From Candidatus Endolissoclinum faulkneri L2 (GTDB lineage Bacteria; Pseudomonadota; Alphaproteobacteria; Thalassobaculales; Thalassobaculaceae): a stretch of 64,000 nt of DNA. The DNA is taken from positions 883,266 to 947,265 of the forward strand of contig NC_019566.1 of assembly GCF_000319385.1 (NCBI RefSeq), read 5' to 3'. Shown in pieces: positions 3,810 through 5,676 of the stretch. How positions within the stretch are numbered: the first letter of the stretch is position 1; every line of letters starts with the position of its first letter. The notes below the pieces were generated by a model that worked only from the letters and a program-made list of their open reading frames with translations, did no database searches and was not told the DNA's origin. The position numbers were made by a program, and so were the translations under genes.

Positions 3810-4376
3810 ATGAAGCTAAATGGGAATGCGCTACGCATCGGCAACGTGGTGGAGCATAAAAGAAGACTTTGGGTTATTACTAAGACTCAGGCAGTAAAGC
3901 CAGGTAAAGGCGGAGCCTTTAATCAAGTTGAGATGAAAGACATTCGCAGTGGTACGAAATTAAACGAACGTTTTCGTGCAGGAGAACAGATTGAAGTCAT
4001 ACGCCTAGAGCAGCGTGAAGCAACCTACCTATATAGTGATGACAATATACTGTACTTTATGGATCAAGATAATTTCTCTCAAATAGAGATTGATTCTAGA
4101 GTAGTGGGTAATAAAAGATCATTCTTAAAAAATGGCTTAAAAGTAAGCATTGAGTTTTTTGAGCAAAATCCACTCTCTATTGCTTTACCCAACACCGTAG
4201 CTATGAGAATTGTAGAGGCAGACTCTGTAATTAAAGGGCAAACTTCTGCAGCCTCATATAAGCCTGCTCTTTTAGAAAATGGTTTAAAAATTTTAGTACC
4301 ACCTTACATTGAAATTGGAGCTTGTGTCATTGTGAAGACTGAAGACTGCAGCTACGTCGAGCGTGCAAAAGAATGA
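3810..4376 (+). CDS. efp: translation elongation factor P
   Basis: EF-P binds between the ribosomal P and E sites and relieves stalling at proline runs. The 188-aa length is standard for the family and all three domains are present. The KOW-like N-terminal domain carries the tip loop KPGKGGAF, with Lys33 at the position of the modified Lys34 of E. coli. No Lys34-modifying enzyme gene (epmA/epmB) is in the window. suhB-like follows after 55 bases on the same strand, an arrangement I recall as common in alphaproteobacteria, so co-transcription is likely. No strong Shine-Dalgarno is visible, only GGGGCT just upstream. The identification is firm. Confidence 0.95.
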   Translation: MKLNGNALRIGNVVEHKRRLWVITKTQAVKPGKGGAFNQVEMKDIRSGTKLNERFRAGEQIEVIRLEQREATYLYSDDNILYFMDQDNFSQIEIDSRVVGNKRSFLKNGLKVSIEFFEQNPLSIALPNTVAMRIVEADSVIKGQTSAASYKPALLENGLKILVPPYIEIGACVIVKTEDCSYVERAKE

Positions 4377-4431: not shown

Positions 4432-5241
4432 ATGGCCGTTCATTCGGCCTTATATAACGTAATTTTTAAAGCCTGCCAAAAAGCAGCTCGCAACCTACGG
4501 AGAGACTTTGGTGAGGTTGAAAATTTACAAGTTTCTAAAAAGGGTCCACTAGATTTCGTATTAACTGCTGAGAGACAAACCGAACGTTTACTCTATGAAG
4601 AGCTCAAACACGCTAGGCCAAAATACGGGTTTTTAATGAAAGTGCAAGGTACATTGCATAGCAGTGATCCGAATAGACAGCGTTGGATTATTGACTCGCT
4701 TGACGGTGCCAAGAATTTTTTACACGGCATTCCGCATTTTGCTATTTCTGTTGCACTTGAAGAAAAAGGTGAGATAATTGCCGGTGCAATTTACCAACCG
4801 CTAAATGATGAGTTTTACTGGGCAGAAAAAGGCTCCGGATCCTTTCTCAATAATCGTCGCTTACGTGTATCTAGCCGTAGTAAAATTCAGCAAGCTTTGT
4901 TAGCCACTGGTATTTCTATTGCTGAAATTACTAATAGTCGAAATTTATTTAACGTATCAGAAAGTAAATTGCTAGAAAAAAGCTTTGGGGTGCTTTGCTT
5001 CGGTAGCTCAGCACTAAATCTTGCTTGGGTTGCTTCTGGTCGGCTTGATGGATACTGGGAGCAAAAACTAAATATCAACAATACAGCAGCGGGTATTTTG
5101 TTAGTAAAAGAAGCAGGTGGCTATATCAGCGATTTTAAAGGCAAGATAGCGTTGCTAAAATCAGCAGGCGATTTAATTGCTTCTAATAGCGTTTTGCATA
5201 CTCCATTAGTCAGTTTGTTAAACCATATCAATATTTCTTAG
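4432..5241 (+). CDS. suhB: inositol monophosphatase-family protein, predicted catalytically dead (SuhB-like)
   Basis: The 269-aa fold of the IMPase/SuhB family is complete, and GRLDGYWE and the EAGG near the C terminus are kept. The catalytic set is largely gone. The family Asp in the xxAD motif is Glu47. The metal-binding GEE is replaced by Met69-Lys70-Val71. DPLDGTTNF reads DSLDGAKNF, keeping Asp88 and Asp91 but losing the catalytic Thr (Ala93). The WD before AAG is Asn216-Asn217. Phosphatase activity is therefore unlikely. The frame is unbroken and starts after a good AGGAG at 9-base spacing, so the protein seems maintained. In E. coli SuhB has a non-catalytic role in rRNA antitermination with NusA. 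A similar role here is inference; slow decay is the alternative. Confidence 0.88.
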   Translation: MAVHSALYNVIFKACQKAARNLRRDFGEVENLQVSKKGPLDFVLTAERQTERLLYEELKHARPKYGFLMKVQGTLHSSDPNRQRWIIDSLDGAKNFLHGIPHFAISVALEEKGEIIAGAIYQPLNDEFYWAEKGSGSFLNNRRLRVSSRSKIQQALLATGISIAEITNSRNLFNVSESKLLEKSFGVLCFGSSALNLAWVASGRLDGYWEQKLNINNTAAGILLVKEAGGYISDFKGKIALLKSAGDLIASNSVLHTPLVSLLNHINIS

Positions 5242-5676
5242 ATATTAATCGCCTAACATATAGTTTTATTTAGAGAATAATTTGTTATTGAATTTTATTC
5301 ACAAAGAGAAATTAATCACCAACAGAACATTGTTTATAGCGTATTTCATATTAAATACTTATCGTTTTTATATAAGTTATTGCTATTTTCTTATTTTGAT
5401 TATATTTCTAGTTAGTTATTTAATTTAATTTTTTTCTAATTGATATGGTACATCAGTAATACAACTAGCATTTGTTACTTATTATAACCTTAATATTAGT
5501 ATATATGCTTAAATGTATAATTATTAGATTTTTACTCGGAATAAAGCAAGTAATAAGTTTACGTTAAATAAAACATCGTAAATAATAAAGTAATTTTTTA
5601 CTTAGGATAATAAAAATTTTTTTATCAGTAATTTAAATTTAATGCTGAAAACCAGTAAATAAATGAGAAAAATTAA
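5242..5676. other. AT-rich convergent spacer between suhB-like and dut
   Basis: The two flanking genes converge on this stretch. No gene, tRNA or convincing terminator stem was seen. Confidence 0.5.

Follow-up and report, generated by a model that had tools for sequence, protein, structure and literature searches.

What keeps a gene in a reduced genome when the residues that gave its product its enzymatic function have been replaced? The 64-kb window analysed here, the whole stretch between positions 883266 and 947265 of the Candidatus Endolissoclinum faulkneri L2 genome (1,481,191 bases), raises this question with a complete gene of the inositol monophosphatase (IMPase) family whose active site is broken (Table 1). 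The best explanation as a whole, to which we assign a probability of roughly three in four, is that the product is a true SuhB orthologue that has become a pseudoenzyme.

Identity of the gene and state of its active site

Read directly, the suhB frame is complete and contains no internal stop, just as the original prediction had described it. The best sequence match of its product among solved structures is Bartonella SuhB (E 5.7e-72), and the top fold matches of the AlphaFold model are the SuhB proteins of Bartonella, Pseudomonas and E. coli, including the SuhB–NusA AR2 complex (6IB8) and the rrn antitermination complex (6TQN). The protein is nearest to SuhB rather than to HisN or CysQ, is placed within the SuhB tree, where it nests with intact congener SuhBs (66–68% identity, support 100/99), and is encoded by the sole SuhB orthologue of the genome. 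Orthology is also supported by the conserved neighbourhood with efp, present in E. faulkneri L2 and extending to catalytically dead copies, as efp flanks suhB at 62 of 69 intact loci, at 8 of 12 dead loci with enough flank, and at none of the paralogues in the flank survey. The resemblance to Bartonella henselae SuhB (3luz/3lv0) holds for sequence and for fold (41–44% identity, TM 0.82–0.95), but the E, E, P, T, W and D of the active site of such alphaproteobacterial SuhBs are replaced in E. faulkneri.

Table 1 Positions in the window of suhB, its surroundings and the codons of its active site
Feature	Position	Strand	Description
efp, elongation factor P	3810..4376	+	Directly upstream of suhB; TIGR00038, 218 bits
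suhB	4432..5241	+	269 aa, full-length IMPase-fold protein with broken active site; PF00459 (Inositol_P), 179 bits; AlphaFold model pLDDT 84
suhB codon 47 (Glu)	4570..4572	+	Conserved Asp replaced in L2 only; Asp in L5
suhB codons 70–71 (Lys-Val; Lys-Ala in L5)	4639..4644	+	Metal-binding Glu-Glu of the family lost
suhB codons 88–91 (Asp-Ser-Leu-Asp)	4693..4704	+	Metal ligands Asp88 and Asp91 still present; Pro89, otherwise invariant, replaced
suhB codon 93 (Ala)	4708..4710	+	Catalytic Thr of the DGT motif replaced in L2 and L5 alike
suhB codons 216–217 (Asn-Asn; Arg-Asn in L5)	5077..5082	+	Trp-Asp motif lost
AT-rich degraded intergenic stretch, suhB to dut	5242..5676		19% GC; alignment with L5 no better than shuffled level

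In L2 the critical positions read Met69-Lys70-Val71, Ser89, Ala93, Asn216-Asn217 and Glu47, whereas E70, E71, P89, T93, W216, D217 and D47 are invariant in an alignment of 28 intact orthologues. Comparison with Candidatus Endolissoclinum faulkneri L5 (NZ_CP006745.1), whose SuhB is 84% identical and whose genome was the one further small genome detected in the genus, revealed six losses common to both strains, namely E70K, E71V/A, P89S, T93A, W216N/R and D217N. On the basis of family motifs we take E70, D88, D91 and D217 to be metal ligands and T93 the catalytic threonine. Among the residues of a Mg-dependent IMPase, E70, T93 and D217 are thus gone from both strains while D88 and D91 are kept, and since K36, G92, N95 and E210 are also still present, the active site has been gutted rather than erased. 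The replaced threonine and Trp-Asp pair had been correctly called from L2 alone, and P89S is an additional loss that had escaped notice. A reported change of the entire Gly-Glu-Glu motif to Met-Lys-Val is accurate for the two glutamates only, because most relatives carry Met or Leu at this first position, and Met69 is normal. The reported Glu47 is a feature of L2 and not of L5, which retains Asp, indicating a later, conservative change. Four of the six losses carry the same replacement in L2 and L5 (K70, S89, A93, N217) and are therefore most simply older than the split between the strains; SuhB is intact in four congeners with genomes of 4.7–5.6 Mb.

The losses are concentrated in the active site. 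The 28 intact orthologues share 59 invariant columns, 11 of them in the active site; six of these 11 have changed in both L2 and L5, compared to none of the remaining 48 (Fisher p=1.0e-5), with the active-site set drawn from the motifs of the family independently of the result. Outside these columns, codons 188–189 (4993–4998) are altered, with R189 replaced by Cys in both strains and R188 by Leu in L2 only. R189 is the counterpart of E. coli R184, which is mutated in the R184A structure, and these changes count against the explanation favoured here.

Three further IMPase-family genes in the L2 genome, none of them SuhB, keep their catalytic motifs and score best as HisN-like, CysQ-like and HisN-family, all under the curated cut-offs. 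The HisN-like and CysQ-like proteins belong to the same superfamily as SuhB but serve other pathways. Their retained motifs indicate that catalytic loss is specific to SuhB, and the motifs are likewise kept in 10 HisN/CysQ-type best matches from other genomes. The HisN-like protein (L002) scores 245.7 bits against an NCBIfam cut-off of 275, and the CysQ-like protein (L003) 226.4 against 228.8, both with intact motifs.

Purifying selection on suhB

The L2 and L5 genomes have published sizes of 1.48 and 1.51 Mb, and the split between the strains has been dated to 6.1–31 Mya (PMC3851785). Over this interval suhB accumulated a dN of 0.087 and a dS of 0.507 (Nei–Gojobori), giving a dN/dS of 0.172 that falls within the spread seen for 31 ORFs of the window compared between the strains, and its amino-acid identity of 0.839 is close to their median of 0.856. 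In a neutral simulation, about 9.6 stops were expected per branch and none of 2000 runs remained stop-free, and the degraded stretch downstream of suhB provides a neutral contrast to the conserved frame. The gene is not decaying, and the protein outside the active site stays under ordinary purifying selection. Lost catalytic residues, an intact frame and purifying selection occur here together, as befits a pseudoenzyme under selection. Simple decay had been anticipated to show as a second, intact suhB combined with relaxed dN/dS in this copy; the genome contains no second suhB and the ratio is 0.17.

Recurrence of the loss in small proteobacterial genomes

To place the E. faulkneri gene in context, the best SuhB matches of about 150 genomes, some of them metagenome-assembled, were aligned. 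Besides the nearest relatives, the sample took in most of the small (<2 Mb), at least 90% complete members of a set of 385 alphaproteobacterial genomes, together with a few small genomes from the phylum at large. SuhBs that had lost at least three of E70, E71, D88, D91, G92, T93 and D217 were classed as dead, which applied to 29 of the 134 SuhBs surveyed, almost exclusively from small genomes. Dead copies made up 0 of 26 in genomes of at least 3.5 Mb, 3 of 10 at 2–3.5 Mb, 6 of 44 at 1.5–2 Mb, 12 of 41 at 1–1.5 Mb and 8 of 13 below 1 Mb; because small genomes were deliberately over-represented, these within-class fractions are meaningful and the overall total is not. Loci with dead SuhBs in other reduced genomes are L065, L070, L080, L144–L152, L161, L163, L169, L170, L177, L180 and L181. 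Five of these (L163, L169, L170, L177, L181) come from genomes of 1.7–3.2 Mb in two genera of the same family, indicating that the loss is not limited to extreme genome reduction.

When 385 alphaproteobacterial genomes and 399 genomes of the phylum were searched with a nucleotide pattern matching the T93A motif, the only IMPase matches were those of L2 and L5, the others being chance occurrences in unrelated frames. The uniqueness of the E. faulkneri case that this pattern implied was mistaken, as the SuhB alignment of small genomes contains many losses with other replacements. Among 17 dead representatives E70 is never kept, D47, E71 and T93 are each kept in one, and D217 in four. In the same 17, G92, N95, F96, G136 and A201 are present throughout and D25, E28, F42, L58, R143, G203, E227 and G229 in 16. 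Other dead pairs with usable dS have dN/dS values of 0.05–0.36, with several dS values near saturation.

Trees built with the active-site columns excluded from the alignment are consistent with repeated loss. A 142-row tree gave 11 changes, at least six of which are forced by supported branches; the divergent best matches in G163, G052, G043 and G247 were counted as dead in it although their positions are unreliable, and the minimum of six stands without them. A more careful 47-row tree, from which the most divergent rows had been removed, gave six changes in the bootstrap trees that were inspected (5%–95% range 6–6). These losses map to E. faulkneri, to a clade formed by two further genera in its family (G012, G013, G032, G034), to one gammaproteobacterial family (G516, G529, G662), and singly to G204, G056 and G409. 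A common origin of the E. faulkneri loss and that of the dead clade in its own family was rejected (AU p 9e-91), and because the motifs are common to the whole IMPase superfamily the direction is loss and not gain. By these trees, small-genome Proteobacteria underwent the same erosion on at least six independent occasions, which implies that catalysis and scaffold function are naturally separable. Recurrence in unrelated reduced genomes also strengthens the separation-of-function reading beyond a single gene. A literature search of open-licence PMC papers, with most subscription papers outside its scope, found no description of SuhB pseudoenzymes.

Nus partners and the probable role of SuhB without catalysis

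In E. coli, SuhB serves as a Nus factor: it contacts the AR2 repeat of NusA, binds the rRNA signal RNA directly (PMC6614801) and has a part in 30S biogenesis (PMC4807359). Its IMPase activity is reported not to be needed for its cellular function (PMC6614801, PMC4807359). E. faulkneri SuhB resembles this fifth Nus factor (6IB7/6IB8/6TQN) by homology and in fold, but the E. coli protein is an active IMPase whereas the loss in E. faulkneri is natural and fixed. The partners are in place, as both L2 and L5 encode NusB and a NusA with both C-terminal repeats. We posit that in the ancestor of the two strains the replacement of the metal ligands E70 and D217 and of the catalytic T93 should have abolished two-metal phosphatase chemistry, judging from the family mechanism; the remainder of SuhB was then held by ordinary purifying selection. 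By homology, the selected role is likely non-catalytic, with SuhB joining NusA, NusB and NusE on RNA polymerase transcribing rRNA, where it would support antitermination and help 30S subunits to mature, as it does in E. coli. A non-catalytic Nus/rRNA role is probably the conserved job of SuhB, with the phosphatase repeatedly dispensable.

A candidate boxA, GGATGGCTCTTGTTGAAGTTT, is located some 50 nt before 16S. The two strains share this block unchanged within a diverged leader, and its likeness to boxA was judged by eye; the comparison covers L2 and L5, as congener 16S leaders were mostly not found. It is one of two blocks of the L2 rRNA leader (L053, roughly 1440–1465 and 1215–1275) that are identical or nearly so in L5, the second being longer, containing TTTTTGACATTGTTTGTGAAGATGAAAGGGATGCG and lying about 270 nt upstream.

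Three other accounts of the E. faulkneri gene would dispense with a scaffold altogether. It is very improbable that suhB is a relic whose function is gone and that has merely escaped disruption so far: the genome is 57% coding and shows extensive decay (PMC3851785), and active-site positions 71 and 216 are still drifting between L2 and L5, but a dN/dS equal to that of functional neighbour genes, the absence of any change common to both strains in the 48 other invariant columns, a neutral simulation that never yields a stop-free frame, and low ratios in other dead clades all argue against it. The idea that residual phosphatase activity suffices and remains the selected function can draw on the two metal Asp residues left in the protein; with both Glu, the catalytic Thr and the third Asp lost and three other IMPase-family genes with intact motifs in the genome, we regard it as the least credible of all. 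Slightly better placed, yet still improbable, is a changed enzyme with an active site rebuilt for new metal use, a new substrate or ligand sensing, with which the persistence of K36, D88, D91, G92, N95 and E210 would agree. Such a rebuilt site is difficult to reconcile with replacements that vary from one dead clade to the next and also inside single clades (K, R, G, P, D or H at position 70; A, I, S, R, E, Q, V, L, M or F at position 93) and even between L2 and L5 at positions 71 and 216, a variability that suggests drift rather than a new conserved motif.

A more serious, though still unlikely, competitor retains the scaffold and removes NusA from the route, with SuhB acting through direct ribosome assembly, RNA binding or another partner, for which the RNA binding and 30S function of E. 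coli SuhB (PMC6614801, PMC4807359) offer a precedent. Mutating Lys251 and Leu254 of E. coli SuhB lowers AR2 affinity more than 1000-fold (PMC6614801). These positions are Thr257 and Val260 in E. faulkneri and are not generally conserved in alphaproteobacterial SuhB, intact or dead; since Lys251 is absent even from intact alphaproteobacterial SuhBs, the contact in this branch must differ from that of E. coli. The residues conserved in dead copies (D25, E28, N95, F96, G136, R143, A201, E227) are also distinct from the mapped AR2 contacts, and the NusA C-terminal repeat was not detected in the dead-SuhB genomes G163, G164 and G222, although G103, the sister of G222, has it. Against a NusA-free route, most dead-SuhB genomes keep the NusA repeats, and a SuhB orthologue is missing from three of six repeat-less genomes compared to five of 69 with repeats (p=0.014), a correlation limited to 75 genomes because the repeats are near-universal (186 of 192). 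Genomes without detectable repeats, as noted for G118, G127 and G257, thus tend to be without a SuhB orthologue as well. The dead gammaproteobacterial SuhBs (G516, G529, G662) further favour the NusA route, as they align end to end with E. coli SuhB (phmmer E 1e-105 or better) and keep Leu254 in all three and Lys251 in two. Like E. faulkneri SuhB they have lost E67, T89 and others (E. coli numbering) and kept the scaffold, but they differ in their separate origin and in these retained contacts.

Retention of a Nus/rRNA role thus remains the preferred reading, and we infer that dead SuhBs are kept for the non-catalytic role known from E. coli. The separation of function foreseen in the original prediction holds up, while its narrower form, in which the protein persists only for scaffolding with NusA, continues to be something that we infer. 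With somewhat less assurance, we consider it fairly likely that across Proteobacteria SuhB is primarily a structural Nus factor, and that its phosphatase is a dispensable ancestral trait dropped at least six and probably at least 11 times in genome reduction. The residues kept in every dead copy would then define an as yet unmapped functional surface.

The wide conservation of SuhB with an intact active site argues for a need for catalysis, whereas the genetic evidence from E. coli argues the opposite. The phenomenon is much broader than the first finding, a recurrent natural split of the catalytic and scaffold functions of SuhB, and the separation-of-function experiment has been done many times by nature. 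Dead SuhBs are ready-made reagents for weighing catalysis against the rRNA role, and the residues that they have in common point to a scaffold surface that E. coli K-12 makes it possible to probe while catalysis is left unaltered. For E. faulkneri, an intracellular bacterium of a tunicate, the retention of SuhB suggests that the protein is needed mainly as a scaffold for rRNA transcription.
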